A DNA stretch of 64,000 bases from Streptomyces roseoverticillatus (GTDB lineage Bacteria; Actinomycetota; Actinomycetes; Streptomycetales; Streptomycetaceae), in contig NZ_JOFL01000028.1 in assembly GCF_000719265.1 (NCBI RefSeq), positions 5,976 through 69,975 on the forward strand, read 5' to 3'. The notes below the pieces were generated by a model. The model was not told where the DNA came from. It made no database searches and saw only the letters and a list, made by a program, of their open reading frames with translations. The translations under genes and the position numbers were made by a program. Of the stretch, positions 1-38,727 are shown piece by piece (position 1 is the stretch's first letter; every line of letters starts with the position of its first letter).

Positions 1-2
1 TG

Positions 3-101
3 GAGGAGGTGCGGGAGATGGTGGAACACTCATACGACCGTGTGGTGTCGGGTCTGCCGAAGGCGGCCCGCGATCGCCTGCGCCTGCTGCGCGCGGCCTG
101 A
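3..101 (+). CDS. C-terminal end of MmcQ/YjbR-family protein (5' truncated)
   Basis: An open frame enters from the left edge and stops with TGA at 99-101, giving 32 residues. They contain HSYDRVVSGLPKAARDRL, which resembles the usual C-terminal helix of MmcQ/YjbR-like proteins (small, CyaY-like fold, suspected DNA binding). The family takes one of its names from a gene of the mitomycin cluster, which fits the genes that follow. Only the tail is visible, so function and full length cannot be judged. The family call is from memory of the tail motif. Confidence 0.55.
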   Translation, partial: EEVREMVEHSYDRVVSGLPKAARDRLRLLRAA

Positions 102-205
102 TCCTTCGTCTCCTCCGCCCCCACTCCCCGCCCCTCCGCCGCTCGCTCCCCCACGTTCTCCGATGACCGGTATGCCAACTGCCCAGCAGACCGAGGGAGT
201 CGTAC

Positions 206-1537
206 GTGACGTTTCGCCAGCGTGTCGTCGTCATCATCACCGAGGGCGCCGCGCCCGAGCTGCTCGAGCGGTGGTGCGCGAAGGGTCTGCTGCCCGGCTT
301 CGCCCGGCTGCGCGCGCAGGGCGTCCACGGGCCGCTGCGCGCGGAGGGCACCCCGTACGAGCCGCCGGGCCTGCTGAGCGTCCTGACCGGGCGGCGGGCC
401 GGGCGGCACGGCTTCTACTCCTACTGGACCTGCCACGATCCCGAGTACGCCCCGCAGGTCCTGACCTCGAAGGACCGCCGGTTCCCGGTGCTGTGGCAGC
501 AGGAGGTGTTCACCGGCGTCAGGTTCGCCTCGATCGGCGTGTTCGGCACCCATCCGCCCGAGCCGTTCGACGGCTCGCTGATCACCTATCCGATGTACGC
601 CACCCTCCACGCCTGCCATCCGCGGAGCCTGCAGCGCACCCTGGCGGCGCGGGGCGTCCGGCCGGTCCACGACGTCTCGGTGTTCTGGACCGGCCAGGAC
701 CGTGACGAGCTGCTGCCCTCCCTGCTGGAGGCGGACGTCCAGCGCGGGCGCGCGGCGCTCGCGCTGCTGGAGGACCACGACGTCGTGCTCGTCAACCTCA
801 CCTCCATCGACCGGACGTCGCACATCTACTGGCAGGAGCTGGAACGGGGGCCGGAGCACGAGGAGTCGAGCGCCGTCCTCGCCGCGTACCGCACCTGCGA
901 CCGCGTCATCCAGGACGTCCTGGACCGGGCGGACGACCGCACCACGGTCCTGGCGTTCTCGGAGATCGGTTTCGGCCCGCTGCGCAACTACCACTCCGTC
1001 AACGCCGAGCTGGAGTCCTGCGGCTTCCTCTCGCACGCCGCGGACGGCCGCGCCGAGTGGGCACGCAGCCGGGCCTTCGAGGCGGTGCAGGGCACGCACG
1101 GGGTGAACGTCAACCTGCGCGGGCGGTACAAGCACGGCACGGTCGCCGAGCGCGACTACGAGGCGGTGCGCACCGAGGTCGCGGCGGCGCTGCTGGAGCG
1201 GCTCAACCCCCGTACGGGCAGGCCCTTCCTGGCGGCCGTGCACCGGCGGGAGGAGGTCTACGCGGGCGAGGCCGTCCACCTGGCCCCGGACCTCGTCCTG
1301 GAGCCGGCGGACTGGCGCTACCTCCCCCTGGGGGATCCCGCGTGGGCCTCCCACGTGCACCGCGACTGGCAGAGCGGCTGGCACCGCCGCGATTCCTACT
1401 GGGCGGCGCTGGGCCCGGGCTTCTCCGGCGGCGCCGCGCGTTCGCGCGTCGCGGCCCCCGTCGACATACCCGCAACCGTGTGCGAACTGCTCGGGCGTGA
1501 CGTGCCGTCGGATTGGGACGGCGTTCCGCTGTCCTGA
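206..1537 (+). CDS. Alkaline-phosphatase-superfamily (type I phosphodiesterase-like) protein with degraded metal site
   Basis: A 443-residue protein starting at GTG 206 behind a GAGGGAG site. The fold signature of the nucleotide pyrophosphatase/phosphodiesterase family is recognisable: an N-terminal strand ending ITEGA, a TGRRAGRHGFYSYW stretch, and SIDRTSHIYW in the middle. Compared with the intact paralogues at 8355-9734, 16332-17747 and 18085-19647, several catalytic residues are changed. The first metal Asp is Glu13, the Thr/Ser nucleophile position is Glu52, and the SDHG motif reads SEIG (Glu253, Ile254). The middle Asp and His (DRTSH) are kept. It is closest by eye to the 18085-19647 protein, sharing GLNVNVRGR-like sequence near the middle. 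It may be a non-catalytic or binding paralogue, or use different chemistry. It sits at the left flank of the mitomycin-type cluster, just upstream of mrd; substrate unknown. Confidence 0.75.
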   Translation: MTFRQRVVVIITEGAAPELLERWCAKGLLPGFARLRAQGVHGPLRAEGTPYEPPGLLSVLTGRRAGRHGFYSYWTCHDPEYAPQVLTSKDRRFPVLWQQEVFTGVRFASIGVFGTHPPEPFDGSLITYPMYATLHACHPRSLQRTLAARGVRPVHDVSVFWTGQDRDELLPSLLEADVQRGRAALALLEDHDVVLVNLTSIDRTSHIYWQELERGPEHEESSAVLAAYRTCDRVIQDVLDRADDRTTVLAFSEIGFGPLRNYHSVNAELESCGFLSHAADGRAEWARSRAFEAVQGTHGVNVNLRGRYKHGTVAERDYEAVRTEVAAALLERLNPRTGRPFLAAVHRREEVYAGEAVHLAPDLVLEPADWRYLPLGDPAWASHVHRDWQSGWHRRDSYWAALGPGFSGGAARSRVAAPVDIPATVCELLGRDVPSDWDGVPLS

Positions 1538-1615: not shown

Positions 1616-1723
1616 GCACGGGTCCAGCACATTCGGACTTCGCGGCCCGGCCGGCCCGGACGGAAGACGGCCGCCCCCCGGAGACCCATTTTAAAGTGCA
1701 AGAAAGTGCAGGAAAGGAAACGC

Positions 1724-2116
1724 ATGTCAGCAAGGATTTCCCTGTTCGCGGTGGTCGTCGAGGACATGGCCAGGTCGCTGGAGTTCTACCGCCTGCTGGG
1801 CGTGGAGATTCCCGCCGAGGCCGACGCCGCGCCGCACGTCGAGGTGGTGCTCGACGGCGGCGTCCGGCTCGCCTGGGACACGGCGGCCACGATCCGTTCG
1901 TACGACCCGCAGTGGGAGGCCCCGAGCGGCGGCCACCGCGTGGCCATCGCCTTCGAGTTCCCCGACACCGCGGCCGTGGACGCCAAGTACGCCGAGCTCG
2001 TCGGCGCCGGCTACGAGGGCCACCTCAAGCCGTGGGATGCCGTGTGGGGCCAGCGCTACGCCATCGTCAAGGACCCCGACGGCACCGTGATCGACCTCTT
2101 CGCGCCCCTGTCGTAG
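1724..2116 (+). CDS. mrd: Mitomycin-binding resistance protein (VOC superfamily)
   Basis: A 130-residue protein of the vicinal-oxygen-chelate/bleomycin-resistance fold. The start is ATG 1724 (MSARISLF), with a GGAAAGGA site 6 bases upstream; a longer in-frame extension was discarded. The whole sequence, for example LEFYRLLGVEIPAEAD, YDPQWEAPSGGHR and YAIVKDPDG, matches my memory of MRD of Streptomyces lavendulae. That dimeric protein binds mitomycin C in its cleft and, with the transporter Mct, gives self-resistance. No Mct-like transporter is in this window. Aromatic residues and the conserved repeat of two beta-alpha-beta-beta-beta units are present. Location at the edge of the mmc genes supports a self-protection role. 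Confidence in the family is very high, and in the exact orthology high. Confidence 0.92.
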   Translation: MSARISLFAVVVEDMARSLEFYRLLGVEIPAEADAAPHVEVVLDGGVRLAWDTAATIRSYDPQWEAPSGGHRVAIAFEFPDTAAVDAKYAELVGAGYEGHLKPWDAVWGQRYAIVKDPDGTVIDLFAPLS

Positions 2117-2236: not shown

Positions 2237-2605
2237 ATGGTCCTACGAGCGCCCGGGCGGCGGCGGGAACCACGCCGCGCCCTGTCCCCGCTCCCCGCAC
2301 GTGTCACCCGCGAAGAACTCTCCGCGGGGGCCGCATTCGCGCCCCGGGATTTCGGCCGGGGCCCGGCCGGGCTGCCGGAGCTGCCCGGTTCCCTGGCCTC
2401 CGCCCCGCTGGGCACACTCCGTTCCGGCATTCTCACCGGACACCTCGGCGGCCCCTGGCTGAGCGGCTTCCCGCGCTATGTCTGGCACCGGTCCGGTGAC
2501 ACCGTCGTGGAATTCCGGCTGACCGGCCGGCGCCCCGGCGAATACACCGGATACGAACTCCACCCGAGTGAATGGCCGGAAGGGCTGGCGGACCATGCTT
2601 CCTGA
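2237..2605 (+). CDS. Small hypothetical protein, translationally coupled to the IrrE-like gene
   Basis: 122 residues if started at ATG 2237 (GGAAGG lies about 10 bases upstream; GTG 2228 is an alternative). The N-terminal third is rich in Arg, Pro and Ala; the C-terminal part is more ordered (GGPWLSGFPRYVWHRSGDTVVEFRLTGRRPGEYTG split across a predicted beta-rich segment). No family is recognised and there is no membrane segment or signal peptide. Its stop (TGA 2603-2605) lies inside the start of the next gene (ATG 2595), so the two are probably made together. A partner or antitoxin-like role is possible but unsupported beyond gene pairing. Confidence 0.5.
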   Translation: MVLRAPGRRREPRRALSPLPARVTREELSAGAAFAPRDFGRGPAGLPELPGSLASAPLGTLRSGILTGHLGGPWLSGFPRYVWHRSGDTVVEFRLTGRRPGEYTGYELHPSEWPEGLADHAS

Positions 2606-4016
2606 GTTCCAATTGCAGTGGAATTGGCACGAGGCCCCCGCCGGCGGCCGGGACGAGCTGCAGGCGACCCGGGCCGACCTGCGCATAGCGGTGGGCGCCG
2701 AGACCGTCACCCTGATCCGGGAGCCCGGCGCCGGGACGTACCGCGAGCACGTCACCGGCTCCCTCTACCCCATGGCCGAGTGGATCGCCTTCAACTGGTG
2801 GTCGCTCGTGGCCGACGCGCGGCCGGGCACCCAGATATCCCAGCTCCGCTTCGCCTACAAGTACGGCGTCGGCGACGACCGCGGCGCGTGGTGGGTCCGT
2901 TCGCGCCGCCACGTCTTACGCGCGGCCTGCGACGGCTTCCGCTGGCCGGACATGCTCTTCGTGCCCGAGGGCCGGGAGACCCGGATCGTGTGGATGCCCG
3001 ACATGGGGCCCGACGTCCGCCCCGGCGACCACTTCGCGAGCCGCGGCAACAGCTGTGTGGAGAGCGCGGCGTTCACCGCCTCCCTGGCCGCGTTCGTGGA
3101 CGCCGTCGCGGACCGCCTGGCCGGGCAGGGCATCACGGACACCCCGCTGCAGGAGGAGTGGGCGGCGATCCGCTCCACCGGCGAGGAGGAGGCCGCCTTC
3201 TGCCGCGTCGCCGCGCGCCTGGGCCTCGACCCCTACAGCGAGGCCGAACCGTACGAGGCCGACATCGTCAAGGCCGCCGAGCAGCTGCCGGAGCCGCTGG
3301 CCGGTGACTTCTTCAACGGCGTGCGGCCGGAGCGGATCGCCGACCAGCTGGAGTGGGTGGCGCGGGCGCGCACGCTGATGGGCACGGCCCCCGAGGGCGC
3401 CGCGCCGGCCGACGCCCTGGTGGAGCTGCGGAAGGCCTGCGCCGACGTGAGCGCCCGGTTCTTCGCCCCGGGCAACCTCGACAACCCCTGGCACCTCGGG
3501 TACGAGGTGGCGCACCGGGTCCGCGCGTGGGCCGGCCTGGAGGACACCCGGCCCTTCGACCCGGCCCCCTTCATGAGCTACCGCACCGAACAGGTCCCCT
3601 ACCTGGACCGCGGGCTGGTCGCCCTCGGCACGAGCCGGGGCGCGGAGGGGGCCGCCCTGGTGTCCGCCCGCCGCTTCACCGACCGTCCCCGGCGCTTCCT
3701 GCAGGCCCGGGCCCTGTGGCACCTGATCTGCGACACCGACGACACCTTCCTCATCGCCGCCGCCCACACCCACCGCCAGCACGTGGCCCGGGGCTTCGCC
3801 CTGGAGGTCCTCGCCCCGGCCCGGGGCATCGCGACCCTGCTGTCCGACCCGGCCCACCTGGTGTCCGCCGAGGACGTGGAGCTGATCGCCGACGACTACG
3901 GCTGCGGCAACATCGTCGTGGAGCACCAGCTGGACAACCTCGTCCTGGCAAGGGACTTCGCCCGGCCGGGCCCGGACCGCACCGGTGCGCGGGGTGACGG
4001 GGGCCGGTCCGCATGA
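2595..4016 (+). CDS. IrrE/ImmA-like protein with degenerate zinc motif
   Basis: 473 residues from ATG 2595, overlapping the preceding gene by 11 bases and the following P450 gene by 4 (ATGA). Residues 1-280 resemble no family I know. The C-terminal part has the layout of an ImmA/IrrE metallopeptidase: a helix where HExxH would sit, then HVARGFALEVLAPARGI and a closing IADDYGCGNIVVEHQLDN segment typical of those proteins. The HExxH motif itself reads RALWH (about residues 372-376), so the first His and the Glu are lost and peptidase activity is doubtful. It contains a TTA leucine codon at 2916-2918, so translation should need the bldA tRNA. Its link to mitomycin chemistry is unclear; sensing or regulation is as likely as catalysis. 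Confidence 0.55.
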   Translation: MLPEFQLQWNWHEAPAGGRDELQATRADLRIAVGAETVTLIREPGAGTYREHVTGSLYPMAEWIAFNWWSLVADARPGTQISQLRFAYKYGVGDDRGAWWVRSRRHVLRAACDGFRWPDMLFVPEGRETRIVWMPDMGPDVRPGDHFASRGNSCVESAAFTASLAAFVDAVADRLAGQGITDTPLQEEWAAIRSTGEEEAAFCRVAARLGLDPYSEAEPYEADIVKAAEQLPEPLAGDFFNGVRPERIADQLEWVARARTLMGTAPEGAAPADALVELRKACADVSARFFAPGNLDNPWHLGYEVAHRVRAWAGLEDTRPFDPAPFMSYRTEQVPYLDRGLVALGTSRGAEGAALVSARRFTDRPRRFLQARALWHLICDTDDTFLIAAAHTHRQHVARGFALEVLAPARGIATLLSDPAHLVSAEDVELIADDYGCGNIVVEHQLDNLVLARDFARPGPDRTGARGDGGRSA

Positions 4017-5218
4017 CCGCACGCGTTCCGTCCCTCTTCCCCTTCCCGCCCGGCCCCCTGGGCACGGTCCCGCCCGCGTTCGGACGGCTCCTGGCCGAGG
4101 ACCCCGTGCCCGAGGTCCGGCTGGCCGACGGGGCGCGGATCCGCCTGGTCACCCGCCACGAGGACGTCCGGACCGTGCTGGCCGACGACCGCTTCAGCCG
4201 GCACCGGGCGGCCCTGCTGCCCGGGCGGGGGTTCGGCCGCTCGCAGGGGTCCGGCATCGTGGACCTCGACCCGCCGGACCACGCCCGGCTGCGGGGGCCG
4301 GTGGCCGCCGCGTTCGGCGCGGAGCGGGCCGCGCGCTTCGTGCCGCGCATCGAGGAGATCGCCGGGGACGTCCTCGCCGGGCTGCCCGCCGGGGCCGGCA
4401 CCGTGGACCTGGTCACGGCGTACACCGCGCCCTTCGCCGGCCGTGTCACCTGCGAGCTGCTCGGGTTCCCCGGTGACCGCTGGCGGGCCGTCACCTCCGA
4501 CGTGGAGCTCCTGCTGCTGCCCCGGGGAGCCGCCGAGGAGGACCTGGCGGCCGCCCGGGACCGGCTCGGGAAGGCCTTGGGCGACCTGCTCGCCGCCTGC
4601 CGGGCCGCGCCCGGCGACAGCGTCGCCCACGCGCTCCTGGGCGCGGGCCCGCAGGACGCCGCCGCGAGCCTGACCGACGAGGATCGCAGGCTGCTCCTCC
4701 ACGGCCTGGTCATCTCCGGCTTCGTCACCATCCGGGACCTCCTGGCCCGCCACCTCTTCGGCGTGCTCTCCTCCCCCGGCCTCGCCGCCCGGCTGGCCGG
4801 CGACCCGGCCCTCGTCCCGGTGGCCGTATGGGAACTGCTGCGCTTCTACCCCTCCACCCACGACGGGCTGCTGCGGGTCGCCACCGAGGACGTGGTGCTC
4901 TCCGGCAGCCGCATCGCCGCCGGGGAGGCGGTGCTGCCGCTGGTGGCGGCCGCCTCCCGCGACCCGGAGGTCTTCCCCGACCCCGACGTCCTCGACATCA
5001 GCCGGATCGCCGACCGCGCCATCGCCTTCGGCGCGGGCCGGCACGCCTGCCCGGCCGCCGACCTCGCCGTGGCCGAGCTGACCGTGGGCGTCGCACGGCT
5101 GCTCGCGGCGTTCCCCGGCATCGCGCCGGCCGTGCCGCCCGAGGAGATCGAGCACAGCAGCGAACTGCTGCCCCTCGCCGTCCGGTCGCTGCCGGTGGTC
5201 CTCGGACCGCGGCACTGA
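4013..5218 (+). CDS. mmcN: Cytochrome P450
   Basis: 401 residues, ATG overlapping the upstream stop. The heme-binding loop FGAGRHAC places the ligand at Cys346, and the K-helix ExxR reads WELLR followed by FYP. The I-helix, where most P450s have AGxET/DT, reads ISGFVTIRDLL: the acidic residue is Val while Thr is kept. This suggests altered proton delivery or an unusual substrate-assisted reaction. It occupies the position of mmcN in the mitomycin cluster of S. lavendulae as I recall it, next to the McrA-like flavoprotein and aldehyde dehydrogenase. A role in oxidising the mitosane core or its carbon substituents is expected, but which step is not known to me. No ferredoxin gene is adjacent. 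Confidence 0.88.
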   Translation: MTARVPSLFPFPPGPLGTVPPAFGRLLAEDPVPEVRLADGARIRLVTRHEDVRTVLADDRFSRHRAALLPGRGFGRSQGSGIVDLDPPDHARLRGPVAAAFGAERAARFVPRIEEIAGDVLAGLPAGAGTVDLVTAYTAPFAGRVTCELLGFPGDRWRAVTSDVELLLLPRGAAEEDLAAARDRLGKALGDLLAACRAAPGDSVAHALLGAGPQDAAASLTDEDRRLLLHGLVISGFVTIRDLLARHLFGVLSSPGLAARLAGDPALVPVAVWELLRFYPSTHDGLLRVATEDVVLSGSRIAAGEAVLPLVAAASRDPEVFPDPDVLDISRIADRAIAFGAGRHACPAADLAVAELTVGVARLLAAFPGIAPAVPPEEIEHSSELLPLAVRSLPVVLGPRH

Positions 5219-5312: not shown

Positions 5313-6731
5313 GTGAATTCAGCAAGCCACCAGTCACCGGGCGCGCCCGTCCCGCTCGGCGCACCGGACGCCGAGGAGCTCAGAGCTCACGTCGCCGGCC
5401 CCGTCCTGCTGCCCGGGGAGGAGGGCTTCGACGAGGAGCTCGCCGGCTTCGAGCTGTCCGTCACGCACCGCCCGGCGCTCATCGTCGGCGCCACCGGCGC
5501 GGCCGACGTCATCGCGGCCGTGCGCTTCGCCGCGGAGCGCGGCCTCGGGGTGGCGGTCCAGGCGACCGGCCACGGCATCTCCCGGCCCGCCACCGACGTG
5601 TTCATCGGCACCCGGCGGATGACCGGTGTACGGGTGGACCCGCAGGCCCGCACGGCGCGCATCGAGGCGGGCGTCCGCTGGGAGCAGGTGATCCACGAGG
5701 CGGCCGTGCACGGGCTGGCGCCGCTCAACGGCTCGGCGCCGTTCGTCGGAGCGGTCTCGTACTCCCTCGGCGGGGGGCTCGGGCTCCTCTCGCGCAAGTA
5801 CGGCTTCGCGACCGACCACATCACCTCCTTCGACCTCGTCACCGCCGACGGCCGGCTGCTGGAGGTCACCCCCGAGCAGCACCCCGACCTGTTCTGGGGG
5901 GTGCGCGGCAGCAAGGGCAACCTCGGCATCGTCACCTCCCTGGAGGTGCGGCTGTTCCCCGTGAGCCGGGTGTACGGGGGCGGGCTGTTCTTCGACGCCG
6001 AGTCGACCCCGGCGGCGCTGAAGACCTGGCTCGCGTGGGCGCCCCGGATGCCGGAGGAGATGGCGTCCTCGGTGTTCCTCGCCGAGTACCCCGACGCCGA
6101 GGGGCTGCCGGGGCCACTGCGCGGCCGGTTCGTCACCCACATCCGGCTGGCCTACCTCGGGGAGCCCGAGGAGGCCGAGCGGCACTTCGCCGAGCTCCGG
6201 GCGGCCGGCACGGTCGTCATGGACACGGTGGCCTCCCTGCCGTACACGCGCGCCGGGGAGATCCATAACGACCCGCCGTCGCCCGTGGCGAGCTACAGCA
6301 AGACCTTCATGCTCCGCCGGCTCGACGAGAAGGCCGCCGACCTGATCCTGCAGCTGGCCGGCCCCGGGACGAATGCGGTGCACGGCGTGGAGCTGCGCCA
6401 CCTGGGCGGCGCCCTGTCCCGGCCCCCGCAGGTCCCCAGCGCGGTGGGCCACTTCCCGGACGCGGTCTTCAACGCCTACATCGCCTCCCTGATCGAGCCG
6501 GAGACGATCGAGTCCGTCGACCGGGCGCAGCAGGGCTTCGTGGACGCCCTGCGGCCCTGGACGACGCCCGGGGCGTGCCTGAACTTCCTCGCGGGCCACA
6601 ACACGTCGGTGGAGGTCGCCCGCGGCGCCTTCACGCCGGAGAACTACGCCCGGCTGCAGGGGCTGAAGGCGCGGCACGACCCGGGCAACGTCTTCCGGTT
6701 CAACCCCAACATCCCGCCGCTGCCCGCGTAG
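5313..6731 (+). CDS. mmcM: FAD-linked oxidase of the McrA/berberine-bridge family
   Basis: 472 residues from GTG 5313 with an AGAAAGG site upstream. The PCMH-type FAD-binding domain covers roughly residues 45-220 (QATGHGIS, GGGLGLLSRKYG, GSKGNLGIVTSLE). A berberine-bridge C-terminal domain ends FRFNPNIPPL. His87 in TGHG is at the position that carries covalent FAD. The second, cysteinyl attachment site of bicovalent members is absent (NGSAPFVG), so single attachment is likely. McrA of S. lavendulae, a relative, reoxidises reduced mitomycin C and gives resistance. This protein could do that or catalyse a dehydrogenation in the pathway. It has no export signal, unlike MitR. The letter follows gene order relative to mmcB, mmcD and mmcF. 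Confidence 0.85.
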   Translation: MNSASHQSPGAPVPLGAPDAEELRAHVAGPVLLPGEEGFDEELAGFELSVTHRPALIVGATGAADVIAAVRFAAERGLGVAVQATGHGISRPATDVFIGTRRMTGVRVDPQARTARIEAGVRWEQVIHEAAVHGLAPLNGSAPFVGAVSYSLGGGLGLLSRKYGFATDHITSFDLVTADGRLLEVTPEQHPDLFWGVRGSKGNLGIVTSLEVRLFPVSRVYGGGLFFDAESTPAALKTWLAWAPRMPEEMASSVFLAEYPDAEGLPGPLRGRFVTHIRLAYLGEPEEAERHFAELRAAGTVVMDTVASLPYTRAGEIHNDPPSPVASYSKTFMLRRLDEKAADLILQLAGPGTNAVHGVELRHLGGALSRPPQVPSAVGHFPDAVFNAYIASLIEPETIESVDRAQQGFVDALRPWTTPGACLNFLAGHNTSVEVARGAFTPENYARLQGLKARHDPGNVFRFNPNIPPLPA

Positions 6732-23381: not shown

Positions 23382-23407
23382 CCCCCATGACCGAAGAAAG
23401 GGCACTC

Positions 23408-24553: not shown

Positions 24554-24554
24554 C

Positions 24555-30953: not shown

Positions 30954-31663
30954 CTCCTCCGCCCCGCTCCGCCGCGGCCTCCCCGGCCGTACCGCCGCGG
31001 ACCGCCGCCCCCGCTCCCGGCCGCTTCGCCACCGTGGTCTTCGACCTCGACGGCGTCCTCATCGACAGCTTCGACGTCATGCGCGAGGCCTTCGCGATCG
31101 CCTACCGCGAGGTGGTGGGCACGGGCGAACCGCCCTTCGAGGAGTACGTCACCCACCAGGGGCGCTACTTCCCGGACATCATGCGGCTGATGGGGCTGCC
31201 CGGCGAGATGGAGGGGCCGTTCGTCCGGGCGAGCCATGAGCTGATGGACCGGGTCAAGGTCTACCCGCACGTACCGGAACTGCTGGCCGTCCTGCGCGAA
31301 CGGGGCGTGCGCACCGCCGTCGCCACCGGCAAGTCCGGCTCCCGGGCCCGCGCCGTCCTGGACCGGACCGAGCTGCTGCCCCTGCTCGACGAGGTCGTCG
31401 GCAGTGACGAGGTGCCCCGGCCCAAACCGCACCCGGACATCGTCCGCGAGGCACTGCACCGGCTGGACGCACCGGCCGACGGAGCGGTCATGGTCGGCGA
31501 CGCGGTGATCGACATCCGCAGCGGGCGCGCCGCCGGCACGGCCACCGCCGGCGTCACCTGGGGCGAGGGCTCGGCGGAACGGCTGCGCGCCGAGCGCCCC
31601 GACTTCCTGCTCGACCAGCCGTGGCACCTGCTCGCGCTCGTGTGCGGCGGGGGGCGCGGATGA
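30944..31663 (+). CDS. mitJ: HAD-superfamily phosphatase (RifM-like)
   Basis: 239 residues from ATG 30944, overlapping mitI by 10 bases. HAD motifs: VVFDLDGVLIDS (nucleophile and acid Asp), VATGKSG, EVPRPKPHPDIV (Lys) and MVGDAVIDIRSGRAAG (Asp pair). Close by memory to RifM of rifamycin and its AHBA-cluster homologues, which dephosphorylate an amino-sugar phosphate on the way to aminoDAHP. The family's partner kinase (RifN-like) is not in this window. The N-terminal 25 residues are a disordered Pro/Ala leader. Confidence 0.9.
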   Translation: MPLTPPPRSAAASPAVPPRTAAPAPGRFATVVFDLDGVLIDSFDVMREAFAIAYREVVGTGEPPFEEYVTHQGRYFPDIMRLMGLPGEMEGPFVRASHELMDRVKVYPHVPELLAVLRERGVRTAVATGKSGSRARAVLDRTELLPLLDEVVGSDEVPRPKPHPDIVREALHRLDAPADGAVMVGDAVIDIRSGRAAGTATAGVTWGEGSAERLRAERPDFLLDQPWHLLALVCGGGRG

Positions 31664-32730
31664 CGGCGGCCGCCCCGCGCTGGAGCGTCGTCGCCCCGCA
31701 GGGGGCGGCCGGTGAACTGGCCGGCACCGGCGGGGCCGAGGGCTGGCGGCTGCTGCTGGAGACCGCCCGCACCGTCCGGCGGCACGGGCGGGGCGCGCTG
31801 TGGCTGCTGGACCGCACGGACACCACGCCGCGGCGCGCGCCCGAGCCCGTGTGGGAGGGCTGGACGGCGCTGGCCGGGCTGGCGGCCGCGGTGCCGGGGC
31901 TGGAGCTGGGCCTGCTCTCCCCGCCGGCGCCCTTCCGCAACGCGGCCCTGCTCGCCAAGCGGGCGGCGAGCGCGGACCACATCTGCGGCGGGCGGCTCGC
32001 ACTGGGCTTTACCGCCGCCGCGTACGTGCCGGAGCACCGCTCCACCGGGATCGCCCCGCCTGACGAACCCTCCCCGGGCGAGGTCTCCGCCGGCGACGAC
32101 CGGGCCCACCGCGCCGTCGGGGAGACGGCCGAGGCGCTGCGCGCGCTGTGGAGCGGCCGGCCGGTGACCCTCGCCGGGGAGCACGTACGGCTGGACGCCG
32201 CGCACTGCGTACCGGCGCCGCACCAGGAGCCGCTGCCGCTGGTCCTGCGCCTGGACGCCGGGGAGGAGGGGGCCGGGGCGCGCCTGCCCGCGGACGTCTC
32301 CGTACGGGAGTGCTCCGCCGTCCAGTGGACGGGCGAGACGCGTCAAGTGGCCGCGGCTGTCGAAGAGTTCGGTAAGCGCAGGACGGCCTTGGGGACGGAC
32401 CCCGGCGGGGTGCGGCACGCCTGGGCGGCCGAGTGCCGGGTCTTCGACTCTGTGCTGGAGCGTGACCGGTGGCTGTGCTCCCCGCACGAGGTGCAGTTCT
32501 GGAGCCACCACCCGGACCTGCTGGCGCGGCGGAGCCTGTACGGCACGCCCGATCAGATCGTGGACCGCGCGCGGAGCCTGCTGGCGGCGGGCGTGGAGGA
32601 GTTCGTGCTGTGGTTCCGCGACTACCCGCACACCACGAGTCTGGACCGGCTCCTCACCGACATCGCCCCCCGCGTCGGCACAGACACCGGTCCCGGCGGG
32701 GCGGAGAAGGCAGAGGAGGCGGAGGAATGA
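31660..32730 (+). CDS. mitK: Divergent luciferase-like oxidoreductase
   Basis: 356 residues from ATG 31660 (ATGA with the mitJ stop). The barrel is recognisable but degenerate at the N-terminus: RWSVVAPQGAAGEL replaces the usual Arg/Lys-rich first strand. ELGLLSPPAPFRNAALLAKRAASADHICGGRLALGF and YGTPDQIVDRARSLLAAGVEEFVLWF are typical in separate blocks. Flavin or F420 use cannot be decided from sequence. The C-terminus ends in an acidic tail. Coupled to mitL (ATG four bases inside). Confidence 0.82.
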   Translation: MTAAAPRWSVVAPQGAAGELAGTGGAEGWRLLLETARTVRRHGRGALWLLDRTDTTPRRAPEPVWEGWTALAGLAAAVPGLELGLLSPPAPFRNAALLAKRAASADHICGGRLALGFTAAAYVPEHRSTGIAPPDEPSPGEVSAGDDRAHRAVGETAEALRALWSGRPVTLAGEHVRLDAAHCVPAPHQEPLPLVLRLDAGEEGAGARLPADVSVRECSAVQWTGETRQVAAAVEEFGKRRTALGTDPGGVRHAWAAECRVFDSVLERDRWLCSPHEVQFWSHHPDLLARRSLYGTPDQIVDRARSLLAAGVEEFVLWFRDYPHTTSLDRLLTDIAPRVGTDTGPGGAEKAEEAEE

Positions 32731-34325
32731 GCCCGGTGCCCGGTACGAAACCCGCCGACCCGTTCCTGTCCACGGCCTGGCTCGCCGCCGGCCGCTCCCT
32801 CGAACGCCCGCCCGCCGGCGTACGCGACACCGTGAGGCTCCGGCTGGAGATCACCGATCCGCCGCCCGGGGCGCCCCCTGCGGTGGACGTGGAGGTGGAC
32901 CTGGCCGCCGGGCGCCTCGGCGTCGCGGCCGCCGCGGGCGAGTCGCCGGGGCTACGGATCACCCTGCCGCACGCGGCGGCCCGCGCGCTGCTGCTGGGCT
33001 CGTCGCAGGAGCGCGCCGGCGTCTTCGAGCGCGGTGACGTGCGCGCCGAGGGCAACTTCAGCCTGCTGTTCTTCATCGACGCGGCGCTCCGGCGGGACGG
33101 GTCGGGGCACGTGGCCGCGCTCCGGGGTGCGGCCGGACTGCCTCAGCCCCGGCCCCGGAAGGCTGCGGAGACTGCTGGGACAGCCGGGGCCGGGGAAACG
33201 GCCGGGGTGGCCGAGGCCGTTGAGCACGCCCGGGAGGCCCTGCCCGGGACCGTGCGCGAGATGGAACGCGAAGTGGGCACCTCGACTCCGGGGGCCCAGC
33301 TGCACGTCTCCCTCGACGGAGTCACCCTGGCGGACGCGGGGCTGGGCGAGGCCCGGCCCGGCGTCCCGATGACCCATCGCTCGCTGCCGCTGTGGTACTG
33401 CTGCGCCAAGCCCCTGCTGTCGGCCGCGCTCGGCCGGCTCTGGGAAGCCGGGGCGTACGACCCGTACCTGCCCGTCGCCCACTACCTGCCCGCGTTCGGC
33501 CGGGCGGGCAAGGAGTCCATCACCTCGATGGACCTTCTCACGCACACGGGCCCGCTGCCGACCGGCGACGACCCGCTGCACGGCGTGGTCGCCGGACCGG
33601 ACGACGAGCGTCTGCGACGGGCCTTCGGCGTCGCGGTCCCGTCATGGTCGCGGCGGGCCCCGGGCGTCAACTACAGCCAGTGGTGGGCCTGGTTCGTCCT
33701 GGCCCGGATCCTTCCCGTGGTCGACGGCAGGGAGTACCGCCCGTACGTCGAGCAGGAGATCCTCGGGCCGTGCGGGATGACGGGCACGCGCGTGCACCTG
33801 ACGCCGGAGGACTTCACGGCCTTCGGTGACCGGCTTCCGCTGATCCACGTGAGCAACCCCCGGTCGGCTCCCCAGCCCACCCACTGGTGGTCCACCGAGG
33901 CCGCGACCACGCGGTGCATCCCCGGCGTGAACACCCGGGGGCCGCTGAGCGACCTCGGCCGCTTCCTCACCATGCTGCTGCGCGGCGGGGCCGCCCCCGG
34001 CGGGCGCGTCCTCGCGCCGACGACCGTCGCCGCGCTGACCGCCCGGCACCGCACCGGCCTGCGCGACCGGTACGGGAACGCCGACTGGGGCATGGGGTTC
34101 CGCCTCGAATGCCGCCACCTGGGCGAGGAGTTCACCAGCTTCGGCACTCACGCCTCCCCGCGGTCCTACGGGCACGACGGGCTGTGGACCGCGGTGGCGT
34201 TCGCGGACCCCGACGCCGGGCTCACCGTGGCCGTCCACCTCAACGGGAAGGTGGAGCACGAACGGCACCGCGAGCGGATCCTCCGCATCGCCGACGCCGT
34301 GTACCGCGACCTCCGTCTGTGCTGA
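32727..34325 (+). CDS. mitL: SCP2-like domain fused to beta-lactamase-family protein with Cys nucleophile
   Basis: 532 residues from ATG 32727 with GGAGG upstream. Residues about 25-140 look like an SCP2 (sterol-carrier) fold. Residues about 180-530 are a serine beta-lactamase/esterase-family domain: the SxxK motif reads Cys225-Cys-Ala-Lys228 (LWYCCAKPL), the Tyr motif NYSQ, and a GHDGLW motif near the end. The nucleophile Ser is therefore Cys, unless Cys226 serves. In capuramycin biosynthesis a relative of this fold (CapW) is an acyltransferase making amides, so an acyl-transfer role is more likely than drug resistance. Low-complexity Ala/Gly linker near 155-170. Followed 45 bases later by mitM. 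Confidence 0.82.
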   Translation: MSPVPGTKPADPFLSTAWLAAGRSLERPPAGVRDTVRLRLEITDPPPGAPPAVDVEVDLAAGRLGVAAAAGESPGLRITLPHAAARALLLGSSQERAGVFERGDVRAEGNFSLLFFIDAALRRDGSGHVAALRGAAGLPQPRPRKAAETAGTAGAGETAGVAEAVEHAREALPGTVREMEREVGTSTPGAQLHVSLDGVTLADAGLGEARPGVPMTHRSLPLWYCCAKPLLSAALGRLWEAGAYDPYLPVAHYLPAFGRAGKESITSMDLLTHTGPLPTGDDPLHGVVAGPDDERLRRAFGVAVPSWSRRAPGVNYSQWWAWFVLARILPVVDGREYRPYVEQEILGPCGMTGTRVHLTPEDFTAFGDRLPLIHVSNPRSAPQPTHWWSTEAATTRCIPGVNTRGPLSDLGRFLTMLLRGGAAPGGRVLAPTTVAALTARHRTGLRDRYGNADWGMGFRLECRHLGEEFTSFGTHASPRSYGHDGLWTAVAFADPDAGLTVAVHLNGKVEHERHRERILRIADAVYRDLRLC

Positions 34326-34370: not shown

Positions 34371-35216
34371 ATGCCGCACTCCGACCTGACCGAACTGCCC
34401 ATGCCGTCGCCCGTGTCCGCCGAGGTGGGCGCGCTCTACGACCGGTTCACCGCCCTGGGCTCCGCCTCCCTGGGCGAGAACCTGCACTTCGGGTACTGGG
34501 ACTCCCCCGACAGCCGGGTGCCGCTGGAGGAGGCGACCGACCGGCTCACGGACATGATGGCCGACCGGCTGCGCATCGGCGCCGGGTCGCGCGTCCTCGA
34601 CCTGGGCTGCGGCGTGGGCACGCCCGGGGTGCGCATCGCCCGCCGCACCGGCGCGGACGTCACCGGCATCTCCGTCAGCACGGAGCAGATCGCCCGGGCC
34701 AACACGCTGGCGGAGGCCTCAGGCGTCGCCGACCGGGCACGGTTCCGGCAGGCGGACGCGATGGAACTGCCCTTCGAGGACGGCAGCTTCGACGCGGTCA
34801 TCGCCCTGGAGTCGATCATCCACATGCCCGACCGCGCCCAGGTCCTCGCGCACGTGGGCCGGGTGCTGCGGCCGGGCGGCCGGCTGGTGCTCACCGATTT
34901 CTTCGAACGTGCCCCCATCCCCGCCGCCGGCCAGACCGCCGTACGGCGCTACCTGCATGACTTCATGATGACGATGGTGACCGCCGAGTCCTACCCGCCC
35001 CTGCTGCGCGGGGCGGGGCTGTGGCTGGAGGAGTTCCTGGACATCAGCGACCAGACGCTGGAGAAGACGTTCGTCCTGCTCTCCGAGCGCATCAACGCGG
35101 CGAAGCAGCAGCTCGCGGAGGAGTTCGGGGAGGAGATGGTGGACCAGTTCGACCCGGGCGACCTGGTGGGAATCAGGGAGTTCGGCTATCTGCTGCTCGT
35201 GGCCCGGCGCCCGTGA
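34371..35216 (+). CDS. mitM: SAM-dependent methyltransferase (aziridine N-methyltransferase type)
   Basis: 281 residues from ATG 34371 with AGAGAGGG upstream. Class I fold: VLDLGCGVGTPGVRIARR (SAM site), GISVSTEQIARAN, ADAMELPFEDGSFDAVIALESIIHM and RPGGRLVLTDF. The layout resembles small-molecule methyltransferases of the Rif14/RebM type. MitM of S. lavendulae has been characterised as the aziridine N-methyltransferase. Its place directly after mitL, as last gene of the plus-strand run, agrees. A terminator hairpin follows at 35251-35294. Confidence 0.92.
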   Translation: MPHSDLTELPMPSPVSAEVGALYDRFTALGSASLGENLHFGYWDSPDSRVPLEEATDRLTDMMADRLRIGAGSRVLDLGCGVGTPGVRIARRTGADVTGISVSTEQIARANTLAEASGVADRARFRQADAMELPFEDGSFDAVIALESIIHMPDRAQVLAHVGRVLRPGGRLVLTDFFERAPIPAAGQTAVRRYLHDFMMTMVTAESYPPLLRGAGLWLEEFLDISDQTLEKTFVLLSERINAAKQQLAEEFGEEMVDQFDPGDLVGIREFGYLLLVARRP

Positions 35217-35316: not shown

Positions 35317-36435
35317 CTACAGCCCCGCGGGGCCGCTCTGCCTCGGCATTCCGTCGAGGGTGCGCAGGACCACGTCCTCGGGGACGCCGGGAACGAGTTC
35401 GGCGCCCCGCGGCCCGTCGAGGACGAAGGCCAGGCCGTCGCCGGCGGCCTTCTTGTCGCGCCGCATCAGCATGGTCAGCAGGGTCGCGTCGGCGTCCTCC
35501 GGGAGCGCCCCGGGCAGGCCGTAGTCGCGGACGACCCGGGCGTGCTCCTCCGCGCGGCCGGCCGTGATGCGCCCCAGGGCCAGGGCCAGCCGGCCCGCGA
35601 AGACCGTGCCGATGGCCACCCCGATGCCGTGGCGGACGGCGAATCCGGTGGCGGTCTCCAGGGCGTGGCCCAGGGTGTGGCCGTAGTTGAGGACGTGCCG
35701 CCTGCCGGTGTCGCGCTCGTCGGCCGAGACGATCGACGCCTTCAGCCGCAGGCTCGCGGTGACCTGCTCGTGGACGGCGAGTCCGCGCAGGTCGCCCGCG
35801 CCGATGAAGTGGCAGCGCGCTATCTCGCCGTAGCCGTTGGTCCACTCCTCGGGGGGCAGCGTCTCCAGGTAGGTGGTGTCGCACAGCACGGCGGCGGGCT
35901 GCCAGTAGGCCCCGACGAGGTTCTTGCCCTCGGGGAGGTTGACCGCGGTCTTGCCGCCGACGCTCGCGTCCACCTGGGCCAGGAGTGTGGTGGGCAGGTG
36001 GATCACGGGCACCCCGCGGTGGTGGAGCGCGGCCGCCAGCCCGGCCGTGTCGGTGGTCGTCCCGCCTCCGCAGGAGACGACCACGTCGTGGCGGGTGATG
36101 CCGAAGGTGGTGAACCGCCGGCACAGGTCCTCCACGGTGGCCAGGGTCTTGTGGCGTTCCCCGTCGCGCACCTGGACGACCGTCGACGGCACGCCGGGGT
36201 CGGGCACCGTCTCCGGCGGCCGTGCGGTGACGACCGCGGCACGCCGGGCGCCCAGTGCCGCCACGACGTCCGGCAGGAGCTCCCGCGCCCCGGGCCCGAC
36301 GTGGACGGCGTAGGAGCGCTCCCCCAGCCGCACGTCGACACGGCTGACAGGGCCGGCGGAACCGACAGGGCTTACGGGACCGCCTGGGCTGACGGGGCTG
36401 TGGCGTCCGGCGGGGTTCTGCTGCGGCTGCGGCAC
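35317..36435 (-). CDS. mitP: 3-dehydroquinate synthase family, aminodehydroquinate (RifG-like) type
   Basis: 372 residues from GTG 36435 (GAGGAGGG seven bases upstream). Core motifs: SCGGGTTTDTAGLAAAL (NAD site), PTTLLAQVDASVGGKTAVN, GKNLVGAYWQP, NGYGEIARCHFIG and LNYGHTLGHALE (zinc and substrate residues). The combination AYWQP plus GEIARCHF is what I recall from RifG-like enzymes rather than primary-metabolism AroB or cyclitol synthases. Expected reaction: aminoDAHP to 5-amino-5-deoxy-3-dehydroquinate, ahead of MmcF. The first 30 residues are a Ser/Pro/Gly/Val-rich leader made of imperfect repeats. First gene of a minus-strand group whose upstream neighbour is mitQ. Confidence 0.92.
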   Translation of the reverse strand: MPQPQQNPAGRHSPVSPGGPVSPVGSAGPVSRVDVRLGERSYAVHVGPGARELLPDVVAALGARRAAVVTARPPETVPDPGVPSTVVQVRDGERHKTLATVEDLCRRFTTFGITRHDVVVSCGGGTTTDTAGLAAALHHRGVPVIHLPTTLLAQVDASVGGKTAVNLPEGKNLVGAYWQPAAVLCDTTYLETLPPEEWTNGYGEIARCHFIGAGDLRGLAVHEQVTASLRLKASIVSADERDTGRRHVLNYGHTLGHALETATGFAVRHGIGVAIGTVFAGRLALALGRITAGRAEEHARVVRDYGLPGALPEDADATLLTMLMRRDKKAAGDGLAFVLDGPRGAELVPGVPEDVVLRTLDGMPRQSGPAGL

Positions 36436-36499
36436 GGCGGCCCTCCTCGCTCGTGGGTACGCCGGCGCTCGCGGGTGCGCGCCGACGCGATCGGTGCGG

Positions 36500-36572: not shown

Positions 36573-36579
36573 GGCGGGC

Positions 36580-37107
36580 TCAGTGCTCCGCCCGGTGTGC
36601 GGCCTCCAGGACGTAGCCGCGCCCGCGGACGGTGCGCACGCGCAGGTCCAGGGCCGACAGCCGGCGGCGGATGCGCATGATGTGCAGGTCGAGCGCGTTG
36701 CGGCTGAGCGGGGGCCGGCCGGGCTGCGGGGCGAGCAGGTCGTCGCGGGCGACGACCTCCGTGAAGGAGGCCGCCAGCCGGGCCACCAGATGCGCACCGG
36801 TGGGCGAGAGCAGGGCGGAGCGGCGGCGGAAGCGCAGGACCCCGTTGGGCTCGACGACGGGCCGGGATTCCGCGGCCGCCCGCATCCGCAGCGCCTCGGC
36901 ACGGGCCCGGAGGTCCCCGGGGCTGATGGGGGCGCGCACCCAGTCCTCCCGGAGGTCCGGGCTCGCGGGCGCCTCCGCGCCCGCCTCCAGCACCAGGATC
37001 CGCATGACCCCGCGGTCGCGGCAGCGCTCCCGGCGGTCGGACTCCGCCGGCCAGCGGATCAGCTCCACCTTCTCTCCCGGCAGTAACGGCACGCGCGCCC
37101 CCTCCAC
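36580..37107 (-). CDS. mitQ: OmpR/PhoB-type winged-helix regulator without a full receiver domain
   Basis: 175 residues if GTG 37107 is the start (the only nearby site is weak). Residues about 95-170 form an OmpR-type DNA-binding domain: GAHLVARLAASFTEVVARDDLL, SRNALDLHIMRIRRRL, VRTVRGRGYVLEAA. The N-terminal 90 residues are too short for a receiver and show no phosphorylatable Asp pocket, so activation is not by classical phosphotransfer. A TTA codon at 37084-37086 (residue 8, if this start is right) would place it under bldA. Likely the pathway-specific regulator; candidate targets are the repeat arrays at 19773-19848 and 36500-36572. Confidence 0.8.
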   Translation of the reverse strand: MEGARVPLLPGEKVELIRWPAESDRRERCRDRGVMRILVLEAGAEAPASPDLREDWVRAPISPGDLRARAEALRMRAAAESRPVVEPNGVLRFRRRSALLSPTGAHLVARLAASFTEVVARDDLLAPQPGRPPLSRNALDLHIMRIRRRLSALDLRVRTVRGRGYVLEAAHRAEH

Positions 37108-37185
37108 CTCAACTGTCCACCATTGAACCGGACTTCACTCAATCACACGGAAGTCCGCGGCGCACGGCTGCGAGGGGCGCTCCGG

Positions 37186-38727
37186 TCAGCCGACGGCCTG
37201 GGCGAAGGAGAAGAAGCGGTGCGGGTCGTAGGCGCGTTTGACCGCGGTCAGCCGGCCGTAGTTCTCGGCGTAGTAGGCCGTGCGCCAGTCGGTCAGCTCG
37301 GGGTCGATGAAGTTCTGGTAGCTCTCGCCGTTGGAGTGCGGGTCGAGGGTGTGCAGCCCGCGCGCGGCCCAGGCCCGGCCGGCGGTCTCGTCCTCGCGGC
37401 TGTAGTCCGGCTTGTTCAGGGCGAGCGAGAAGCCCAGGTAGAACTGCGTGTCGCGGTGCACGTAGGCGGTGGTGGAGCGGTCGGGGCGGTTGGCGGCGCC
37501 GCCGAGGGCGAAGAAGCTCAGGAAGCGGAACTGCCCGGCCCGGGGGCCCGCGGCGAAGGCTTCCAGGATCCGCTCGACGCCCCGCGCCGGGATGGCCGCG
37601 GAGAAGAGCCGGTTGCGGTCGATGGAGAAGTTCTGCCGGGGCAGGGCCGCCTCGGGCGAGTAGCCCACGGTGTGGCACTGCTCGGGCGACAGCTCGGCGC
37701 AGCCGTACTGCGCCATCATCGCGTCGTGCGCGGACTGCCGCTTGGCCGACCGCGTGGCGGGCGCCCGGCCCACCGACGCCACCAGGGAGTCCAGTACGGG
37801 GTCGAGGGCGTCCGGCGCGCCGAGCCAGGCTCCGGTGACGACGACCACCGGGGCGCCGGTCCCGGCGTCCGGCCACTGCACGGCCAGGGCGGCGCCCAGG
37901 TCCCGCGGGCCGTCGATGATCCAGTGCTGCCACGCCTCGACGACCCGCTGCGCGGCCTCCCACGGCCAGGTGAGGTTGTAGCTGACGAGGGTGGGCACGT
38001 CCGTGGGCCGCAGCTCCAGGCTGGTGATCACGCCGAAGTTGCCGCCCCCGCCGCCGCGCGTCGCCCAGAACAGGTCCGGGTGCTCGGCGGCGGACGCGGT
38101 GACGGCCCGCCCGTCGGCCAGGACGATCCGGGCCGAGACCAGGCGGTCGCAGGCCATGCCGTACTTGCGGGTCTGCCAGCCCAGCCCGCCGCCCGGGACG
38201 AACCCGCCGGGGCAGACGCCCGGGCAGTTGCCGCCCGCCACGGTGACGCCGCGCGGCGACAGCGCCGTCAGGGCGTCCACCTGCTGGGTGCCGGCCCCCA
38301 TGACGACGGTGTTCCGGGGCGTCAGCCCCACCGTGCTGAGCCGCGAGAGGTCGAGGACGATCCCCTCGCCCGTGGAGTAGCCGCCGAAGCTGTGCCCGCC
38401 GCTGCGCGGGACGAGGGGCAGGGCGTGGTCCTGGGCGAACGCGAGGGTCGTCCGGACGTCCTCCTCGCTCCGGCAGTAGGCCACGGCCTGCGGCCGGATC
38501 CCGTCGAACTGGCCGCTGTAGAGCTTCCTGGCCCGTTCGTAGCCGCTGTCCGAAGGCAGGACGAGGTCGCCCGACAGGCGGCGTTCGAGCTCGTTCCAGT
38601 CGACGCCGCCGCCTGCGCGCCGCGCGGCCGGACCCGCCGGGCCCGCGGCCGCCGCACCGGTCGCGCCGGTGGCGGCAGCGGCCGCCGCCACCGCTCCGGC
38701 CCGTAGCACAGTCCGCCTGTCGAGCAT
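37186..38727 (-). CDS. mitR: Tat-exported, bicovalent FAD oxidase (berberine-bridge family)
   Basis: 513 residues from ATG 38727 (GGAGAGG 4 bases upstream); longer starts at 38745 and 38793 lack good sites. The N-terminus is a Tat signal: DRRTVLRAG followed by an Ala-rich hydrophobic stretch. The FAD domain has His112 in RSGGHSFGG and Cys168 in GGNCPGV, the pair that binds FAD at two points. GGGLGWQTRKYG and GGNFGVITSLELR follow. The C-terminus ends YDPHRFFSFAQAVG, the usual berberine-bridge tail. It probably oxidises a late intermediate or the drug outside the membrane; export would separate it from the cytoplasmic McrA-like MmcM. Right end of the recognisable mit genes. Confidence 0.9.
   Translation of the reverse strand: MLDRRTVLRAGAVAAAAAATGATGAAAAGPAGPAARRAGGGVDWNELERRLSGDLVLPSDSGYERARKLYSGQFDGIRPQAVAYCRSEEDVRTTLAFAQDHALPLVPRSGGHSFGGYSTGEGIVLDLSRLSTVGLTPRNTVVMGAGTQQVDALTALSPRGVTVAGGNCPGVCPGGFVPGGGLGWQTRKYGMACDRLVSARIVLADGRAVTASAAEHPDLFWATRGGGGGNFGVITSLELRPTDVPTLVSYNLTWPWEAAQRVVEAWQHWIIDGPRDLGAALAVQWPDAGTGAPVVVVTGAWLGAPDALDPVLDSLVASVGRAPATRSAKRQSAHDAMMAQYGCAELSPEQCHTVGYSPEAALPRQNFSIDRNRLFSAAIPARGVERILEAFAAGPRAGQFRFLSFFALGGAANRPDRSTTAYVHRDTQFYLGFSLALNKPDYSREDETAGRAWAARGLHTLDPHSNGESYQNFIDPELTDWRTAYYAENYGRLTAVKRAYDPHRFFSFAQAVG

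Follow-up and report, generated by a model that had tools for sequence, protein, structure and literature searches.

Mitomycin is a DNA-crosslinking cancer drug, and mitomycin C is in clinical use. In Streptomyces lavendulae NRRL 2564, mitomycin C is encoded by a cluster of 47 genes on 55 kb, including seven AHBA supply genes, according to PMC8621148, which together with PMC9570651 also gives the published functions of MitB, MitC, MitD, MitE, MitF, MitH, MitM, MmcB, MmcR and MmcS. The later steps of mitomycin C biosynthesis are still partly unassigned according to PMC9570651. Here, a window of 64,000 nucleotides from contig C28 was analysed (positions are those of the window unless given for C28 or C45). 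The initial annotation had read it as a near-complete mitomycin-type cluster, and Pfam and PDB matches confirmed every element that it had named at its place. The locus very probably represents a cluster for mitomycin biosynthesis, to all appearances complete, in a Streptomyces close to S. klenkii and S. nondiastaticus. Orthology to the described cluster is suggested by the matches to three crystallised mitomycin proteins and to RifK together with the domain content, and the strain would, judged from its genes, be a mitomycin producer.

Extent and gene content of the cluster

The mitomycin-type cluster occupies the window as far as 39653. An extent of 1 to 38727 had been proposed; the left part runs beyond the window, and on the right 39653 is the better boundary, because the SIP-type flavin reductase ending there is conserved in S. 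klenkii (92%) and in three further clusters (66%). To the left of the window, C28:1-5975 carries mmcR, an aromatic-ring hydroxylase gene and an MmcS-type carbamoyltransferase gene (96% in S. klenkii), the latter assigned by its domains, without comparison to an MmcS reference. The cluster continues on contig C45 with MFS exporter, MarR, shikimate-dehydrogenase-like and ROK genes (85-96% to their S. klenkii counterparts), and three genes at C45 6672-10637 are without S. klenkii match. Between C28 and C45 the assembly lacks about 1.5 kb, and most of a CysD-like and part of a CysN-like gene fall into this gap. Sulfate-activation genes (CysC/CysD/CysN-like) are conserved with the cluster.

The plus-strand run announced from AHBA synthase, GT2, PIG-L, radical SAM and AMP ligase onward to mitM was recovered by Pfam as 13 genes in series (20139-35216), equal in number to the letters A-M. 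Likewise, mitP/Q/R-like genes lie to the right (35317-38793), the minus-strand mmcF-mmcA block spans 12950-19647, and mrd stands at the left (1706-2116). Seven letters with a published function (B, C, D, E, F, H and M) are at matching ordinal places, which supports the mitomycin-type identity. The letter-by-letter mitA-M order is presumably that of S. lavendulae, and the letters mmcA, mmcC-E and mmcG-P are used as we take them to apply.

20379..21539, plus: mitA, AHBA synthase (DegT-family aminotransferase by Pfam, scanned as 20139-21539; PDB 1b9h)
21544..22536, plus: mitB, GT2 glycosyltransferase (GlcNAc to AHBA-ACP), long N-terminus included (PF00535)
22533..23381, plus: mitC, PIG-L deacetylase (PF02585)
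23387..24553, plus: mitD, radical SAM enzyme (PF04055; CNLSCTYC motif)
24555..26870, plus: mitE, AHBA-activating AMP ligase with C-terminal O-methyltransferase-like domain (PF00501/PF13193/PF08100)
26870..27643, plus: mitF, SDR reductase (PF13561)
27715..28809, plus: mitG, Gfo/Idh oxidoreductase, RifL-like by family, AHBA nitrogen supply (PF01408)
28806..29945, plus: mitH, luciferase-like oxidoreductase (PF00296, E 1.2e-50)
30039..30953, plus: mitI, transglutaminase-like (PF01841, E 1.1e-5)
31034..31663, plus: mitJ, AHBA-associated HAD phosphatase, RifM-like (TIGR01454 AHBA_synth_RP)
31660..32730, plus: mitK, luciferase-like oxidoreductase (PF00296)
32727..34325, plus: mitL, beta-lactamase-fold protein (PF00144, E 4.7e-49)
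34371..35216, plus: mitM, aziridine N-methyltransferase (PDB 8zc8/8zc7, MitM)
35317..36435, minus: mitP, (amino)dehydroquinate synthase (PF01761, E 3.7e-42)
36580..37107, minus: mitQ-like winged-helix regulator (PF00486, E 3.9e-9)
37186..38793, minus: mitR-like BBE FAD oxidase (PF01565/PF08031)
38910..39653, plus: SIP-type FAD/NAD(P)H flavin reductase, last gene on the right (PF04954, E 3e-22)
C28:2485-4125: carbamoyltransferase MmcS (PF16861 and PF02543)

The mrd-mmc part of the window holds the following genes:

206..1537, plus: type I phosphodiesterase/alkaline-phosphatase-superfamily protein, taken as mmcP (PF01663, E 3.3e-40)
1706..2116, plus: mrd, mitomycin-binding resistance protein (PDB 1kmz/1kll/2a4w, 'mitomycin-binding protein')
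2595..4016, plus: ImmA/IrrE-family relative without HExxH motif, taken as mmcO (homologues, alignment)
4013..5218, plus: cytochrome P450, taken as mmcN (PF00067, E 1.7e-21; heme motif FGAGRHACPA)
5313..6731, plus: BBE-type FAD oxidoreductase, taken as mmcM (PF01565, PF08031)
6829..8352, plus: aldehyde dehydrogenase, taken as mmcL (PF00171, E 3.2e-142)
8355..9716, minus: type I phosphodiesterase, taken as mmcK (PF01663)
9911..10678, plus: luciferase-like oxidoreductase, taken as mmcJ (PF00296)
10675..11487, minus: luciferase-like oxidoreductase, taken as mmcI (PF00296)
11597..12361, plus: PhyH-type oxygenase, taken as mmcH (PF05721, E 7.9e-37)
12422..12922, plus: small protein, no family assigned, taken as mmcG (homologues in other clusters)
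12950..13387, minus: mmcF, type II dehydroquinase-like, amino-DHQ dehydratase of the AHBA pathway (PF01220, E 6.3e-43)
13409..14503, minus: MtrA-like corrinoid, pterin-binding and ACP fusion, taken as mmcE (PF04208, PF14251, PF00550)
14497..16332, minus: B12-dependent radical SAM protein, taken as mmcD (PF02310, PF04055; CxxxCxxC at 223)
16332..17747, minus: type I phosphodiesterase, taken as mmcC (PF01663)
17744..18004, minus: mmcB, acyl carrier protein carrying AHBA (PF00550)
18085..19647, minus: type I phosphodiesterase, taken as mmcA (PF01663)

Some of these assignments go beyond a plain family match. The phosphodiesterase at 206..1537 reaches 97% in S. klenkii. The protein at 2595..4016 matched neither Pfam nor NCBIfam, and several of its homologues are named ImmA/IrrE or bear PF06114. 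The P450 does not match the strict motif FxxGxxxCxG because its last Gly is replaced by Ala, the Cys being present. The small protein at 12422..12922 has no Pfam match even at E 10 and shares 42-44% identity over 68% of its length with proteins of three other clusters.

Precursor supply, assembly, methylation and resistance

The AHBA synthase and the AHBA supply genes are all present on the window and C45. MitA matched the RifK AHBA synthase (PDB 1b9h) with 545 bits and 248 identical residues in 377 aligned columns (66%), the next listed match being a 2-deoxy-scyllo-inosose aminotransferase at 221 bits; the NGK motif is present, and in the NCBIfam search no AHBA synthase model was among the matches, the best of which stayed below its cut-off. 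MitJ scored 351 bits against TIGR01454 AHBA_synth_RP in NCBIfam (cut-off 246.65). The seven supply genes we take to be mitA, mitG, mitJ, mitP and mmcF plus RifI-like (shikimate-dehydrogenase-like) and RifN-like (ROK) genes, whose families were read from the S. klenkii genes and whose C45 copies were assigned by their identity to them (90% and 85%, respectively).

The assembly machinery is likewise present, comprising an AHBA ligase, a discrete ACP with active Ser, a GT2 glycosyltransferase, a PIG-L deacetylase, an SDR and a radical SAM enzyme. MmcB has a DSI motif with Ser at residue 43, the residue reported as active in PMC8621148. Five further proteins, four of which carry the name Streptomyces, share 79-88% identity with MitB. 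Genes resembling mitB-E are also present in other AHBA clusters of Streptomyces. The predicted C-terminal O-methyltransferase-like domain of MitE (about residues 460-771) rests mainly on Pfam and on an hhalign probability of 93.5 to MmcR, and less on the structure model, which had a mean pLDDT of 60 (core blocks 76-94) and gave Foldseek TM-scores of 0.39/0.37 to MmcR at an rmsd of 15.1.

Mrd, MitM and MmcR match named mitomycin proteins at 81-85% identity. Mrd is identical to 1kmz at 110 of 129 positions (85%; E 6.7e-75) and MitM to its crystallised namesake (8zc8/8zc7) at 238 of 281 (85%; E 9.4e-159), values at which the likeness is not due to chance; the 7-O-methyltransferase MmcR, encoded on C28 just left of the window, is identical to crystallised MmcR at 280 of 347 positions (81%). 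Hence, resistance protein, aziridine N-methyltransferase and 7-O-methyltransferase are all in place.

Product class and proposed pathway

MitN methylates 9-epi-mitomycin. Between mitM, ending at 35216, and mitP no gene was called, so the letters N and O are unfilled there, and the S. klenkii counterparts of both genes are neighbours too. A genome search with MitM as query and without a MitN reference sequence (E <= 1e-10) found no close second MitM-like methyltransferase; its eight matches comprised MitM and, all outside C28 and C45, seven partial sequences at 33-44% identity. It is conceivable, if rather less than evenly probable, that the locus specifies a mitomycin variant in which MitN is absent, N-methylation does not reach the 9-epi branch and the spectrum of products departs from that of S. 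lavendulae. This would be a special case of the mitomycin reading, with odds not to be added to it. PMC8621148, which records MitN in S. lavendulae, speaks against the variant by giving MitN another probable role, at C-9a, and a distant mitN copy may lie elsewhere, the search having been made with MitM.

An FR900482-type product, a hydroxylamine hemiketal with a phenol instead of the quinone, would share with mitomycin the aziridine and the carbamoylated hydroxymethyl group, and a pathway in common has been suggested (PMC8788734 and PMC9570651), so that its early genes would look alike. The presence of MmcR and an aromatic-ring hydroxylase nevertheless contrasts with the phenol-only FR900482, a distinction drawn from the structures in PMC8788734. 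With MmcR (81%), the ring hydroxylase, MitM (85%) and Mrd (85%) all present, FR900482 appears disfavoured and quite improbable, and a mitomycin is the more likely product in what is a one-sided comparison made without an FR900482 cluster sequence. A cluster for an ansamycin or another AHBA-derived polyketide, for which an AHBA synthase gene shares its contig with type I PKS genes (54097-57408 and 59455-63981, right of the cluster) as possible assembly line, can be practically dismissed, since the PKS genes start 14 kb past the conserved block and neither matches the S. klenkii region, no PKS domain was found in the scanned proteins encoded between C28:1 and window position 39653, Mrd, MitM and MmcR match named mitomycin proteins, whereas the initial annotation had named best matches in an ansamycin cluster as evidence against its reading, and we know of no place for MitB-F, MmcB, Mrd, MitM or MmcR in ansamycin pathways.

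For the favoured mitomycin product, the genes, their order and identities are observed, and the chemistry is transferred from enzymes described in S. lavendulae and S. caespitosus. AHBA would be made by the seven supply genes, activated by MitE and loaded onto the ACP MmcB, where MitB would add GlcNAc and MitC deacetylate it. MitF and the radical SAM enzyme MitD may then start ring closure on the carrier protein, and flavin/F420-type oxidoreductases, the PhyH-type oxygenase and the P450 could complete the mitosane. The 7-methoxy quinone would be built by the FAD hydroxylase and MmcR, the C10 carbamate set by MmcS and the aziridine N-methylated by MitM, with Mrd and the MFS exporter providing self-protection.

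It might also be that mitosane assembly involves sulfate activation, although we consider this proposal, including the roles it gives to the phosphatase superfamily and the MitE domain, unlikely. PAPS from the CysC/CysD/CysN-like proteins of the cluster would serve to convert a hydroxyl of the sugar into a leaving group, allowing the aziridine or pyrrolidine ring to close, the four alkaline-phosphatase-superfamily proteins would act on such esters, and the C-terminal domain of MitE would be a scaffold, or a real methyltransferase, for ACP-bound intermediates. No sulfotransferase was detected by Pfam among 50 window ORFs and 20 proteins of L001 and the S. klenkii flank, and the titles and abstract beginnings of open-access literature contained nothing that linked mitomycin biosynthesis with PAPS or sulfation, both words co-occurring in other contexts. 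If the proposal holds, AHBA-glucosamine chemistry would be a family wider than the mitomycins, as suggested by a further cluster (G127) with MitB-F-like and CysD/CysN-like genes in which no MitM or MmcS counterpart was seen.

Comparison with related clusters

Loss of synteny with the mitomycin locus had been named as evidence against the mitomycin assignment. With S. klenkii KCTC 29202 (NZ_RBAM01000010.1) as stand-in for S. lavendulae, all 39 compared ORFs were collinear, at identities of 83-98% (median 94%); the S. klenkii cluster lies on one contig, whereas ours is split in two. Among titles and abstract beginnings of open-access literature, none dealt with mitomycin genes of S. klenkii. Two fragments titled Streptosporangium nondiastaticum (L004 and L005) carry 10 genes each at 90-99% identity and both break inside mitB, a comparison confined to two short contigs with weaker paralogue matches left out.

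Three rearranged mitomycin-like clusters (G133, G082 and G358) were compared by tblastn with the window genes, which also took in the weaker MitB matches G351 and G338. Each has counterparts for 36 of the 39 ORFs (42-85% identity), including MmcR, MmcS and MitM, but in a different gene order, and with a second ACP gene and an aldo/keto-reductase-like gene, the latter read by eye. In these three clusters neither mitQ nor 10675-11487 was matched, and for mitR there is no orthologue, only 27-30% matches at the MmcM counterpart. Together with the present cluster and the near-identical one of S. klenkii they form a comparative set. The genes that all its members share, namely those for sulfate activation, the phosphodiesterases, the pair of B12-radical SAM and MtrA/ACP proteins and the ImmA-like protein, may belong to the core chemistry, and mitQ and mitR, missing from the rearranged clusters, may act in regulation or in late oxidation steps.

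Relative to the rifamycin pathway with its RifK, the other AHBA genes are alike by family, and the mitomycin-type conserved block differs by containing no polyketide synthase. Unlike S. lavendulae, which has MitN, the locus showed no close MitN-like gene and nothing at the letters N and O. As in S. lavendulae, however, it combines the AHBA genes, the MitE-MmcB-MitB-MitC-MitF-MitD assembly, MitM, MmcR, MmcS, Mrd and the ACP Ser43. Collectively, the cluster is a close yet distinct version of the known mitomycin cluster, an apparently intact relative and not new in kind.

Gene content of the cluster

Contig C28 (69,975 bp), of which the window takes up bases 5976-69975, belongs to a genome of 7.2 Mb in 96 contigs and harbors a genuine, apparently intact mitomycin cluster of an already known kind. 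Gene calling by codon-position GC together with Pfam scans for the families bore out the gene list of the initial annotation, i.e. mitA-M, mitP/Q/R, mmcA-N and mrd. Between 20139 and 35216, 13 plus-strand genes follow each other, whose families are, in order, those expected of MitA to MitM. The letters mmcA, mmcC-E, mmcG-P, mitG, mitI-L, mitP-R and mmcF are taken here as an assumption. The functions reported for B, C, D, E, F, H and M in excerpts of PMC8621148 and PMC9570651 match places 2, 3, 4, 5, 6, 8 and 13 of this series, respectively.

Several products could be compared with characterised proteins. Mrd shares 110 of 129 residues with PDB 1kmz, MitM 238 of 281 with 8zc8, and MmcR (C28:4179-5219, minus strand, just left of the window) is identical to 3gwz in 280 of 347 aligned columns. 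MitA has 248 of 377 residues in common with the AHBA synthase 1b9h (545 bits), the next listed match being an inosose aminotransferase at 221 bits; its NCBIfam matches included no AHBA-synthase model, only sugar aminotransferases under their cut-offs. With 351 bits, MitJ lies above the cut-off (246.65) of TIGR01454, an AHBA-specific model. The carrier protein MmcB has the serine of its DSI motif at residue 43, which has been shown to be essential according to an excerpt of PMC8621148. None of the 17 translated proteins contains an internal stop.

MitN is probably absent, as judged from sequence with MitM as query, because no gene was called between mitM (end 35216) and mitP, and a MitM search of the genome (E <= 1e-10) returned, besides MitM itself, only seven partial matches of 33-44%, none of them on C28 or contig C45.

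Genes, order and identities were observed directly, and from the described pathway we infer the chemistry. The AHBA-type genes would supply AHBA, which MitE may load on MmcB; MitB would then transfer GlcNAc, MitC deacetylate the product, and MitF/MitD close the ring, with oxidation presumably following at a later stage. MmcR, MmcS and MitM are putative tailoring enzymes, and self-protection might rely on Mrd and export.

Extent of the cluster and its borders

To the left, the cluster extends through the remaining 5,975 bases of C28 (L001), and a DNA search with the left flank of the S. klenkii cluster (L019) showed that contig C45 (17,195 bp; L057) carries it onward from its first base.

Cluster genes left of the window
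L001 135-722: APS kinase-like protein
left 5,975 bases of C28: aromatic-ring FAD hydroxylase
left 5,975 bases of C28: carbamoyltransferase
C28:4179-5219, minus strand: MmcR
starting in the left 5,975 bases of C28, ending inside the window: YjbR protein
C45, L057 1-528: end portion of a CysN-like gene
C45: MFS exporter
C45: MarR regulator
C45: shikimate-dehydrogenase-like gene
C45: ROK-kinase-like gene

Since C28 and C45 start at positions 18221 and 16676 of L019, the assembly gap measures about 1.5 kb and holds most of the CysD-like gene. With the shikimate-dehydrogenase-like and ROK-kinase-like genes of C45, the AHBA-type genes number seven (the others being MitA, G, J, P and MmcF), as they do in S. 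lavendulae according to an excerpt of PMC8621148. Three further genes on C45 (L057 6672-10637; 396-421 aa) are unmatched in the corresponding S. klenkii region.

Right of 39653, only one of 17 ORFs compared has a close S. klenkii counterpart (43479-44498, 84%), while 3 gave matches of 31-35% and 13 none. The protein of this gene, whose span is also given as 43431-44498, matches the neurotransmitter-gated channel ligand-binding domain at a level under the Pfam cut-off (E 1e-4). A DegT aminotransferase adjoins the cluster edge on the minus strand (39658-40839); the S. klenkii region gives it 31% matches only, and a gene from the region of G127, a genome with another AHBA-type cluster, shares 63% identity with it along 213 residues. 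A second biosynthetic cluster occupies 50078-63981, with a glycosyltransferase, a DegT aminotransferase, a P450, a KS-AT-ACP protein, an ABC transporter and, starting at the contig end on the minus strand, a KS-AT-DH-KR-ACP protein.

Conserved genes and the MitE fusion

What makes the locus interesting is the comparison set, together with conserved genes that the described pathway leaves unexplained, namely those for sulfate activation, the four phosphodiesterases and the B12-radical SAM/MtrA pair. Genes for sulfate activation (APS kinase-, CysD- and CysN-like) sit inside the cluster (L001 135-722; L019 16149-18349; L057 1-528) and recur in S. klenkii and in three rearranged clusters, the CysC- and CysD-like genes in 3/3 and the CysN-like gene in 2/3 of the latter. 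The mitomycin molecule is sulfur-free. Pfam recognised no sulfotransferase among 50 window ORFs and 20 proteins of L001 and the S. klenkii flank. MitE (24555-26870) is, by sequence, an AMP ligase with an O-methyltransferase-like domain fused to its C-terminus; this domain is a relative of MmcR and perhaps does not bind SAM. The four phosphodiesterases share 27-31% pairwise identity. An ImmA/IrrE-like protein (2595-4016) is missing the HExxH motif; the homologues nearest to it, at 56-95%, come from Streptomyces, Saccharopolyspora, Kitasatospora and Actinosynnema, and several of them are on contigs equal in length to contigs that gave MitB or MitM matches.

Related clusters in other genomes

The cluster is uncommon, because the MitB profile matched 12 of 392 genus genomes at E <= 1e-60, five of them, our own included, at 1.5e-120 or better, and of 394 genomes sampled from the class MitD (E <= 1e-90) matched two, our own being one. 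A 69% MitB was found in S. olivoreticuli, and an excerpt of PMC12472026 names mitomycin C among the metabolites of a strain of this species.

In S. klenkii, all 39 ORFs (-5840 to 39653, negative positions lying left of the window; one 27-residue piece at the contig edge omitted) are collinear with the cluster here at 83-98% identity (median 94). The rearranged clusters (G133, G082, G358) have counterparts of 36/39 ORFs; they lack the mitQ-like regulator, the luciferase-like gene of 10675-11487 and mitR, for which only 27-30% matches appeared, located at the MmcM counterpart. In G082, several broken ORFs and the lack of a called CysN-like gene suggest that the cluster could be damaged or poorly assembled. 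Nearer than S. klenkii, for most of the cluster genes they carry, are L004 and L005, two fragments titled Streptosporangium nondiastaticum, with 90-99% identity over those genes; their genus label is doubtful, given that Streptomyces nondiastaticus is the name on the record of a near-identical MitM.

G127 carries a different AHBA cluster (C1, ~36-61 kb; L040, L036), which has counterparts of MitA-G, MitI, MitJ and MmcA-F at 34-71% as well as CysD/CysN-like genes at 35-38%; in the 60 kb examined, MitM, MmcS and MitR had no match, and those of MmcR (27% over 187) and Mrd (29%) were weak. Another AHBA-type cluster in G362 (C2, ~3.806-3.825 Mb; L034, L035; 40 kb examined) has counterparts of MitB (56%), MitE (44%), MmcF (66%), MitJ (52%), MitP (67%) and the carbamoyltransferase (48%).
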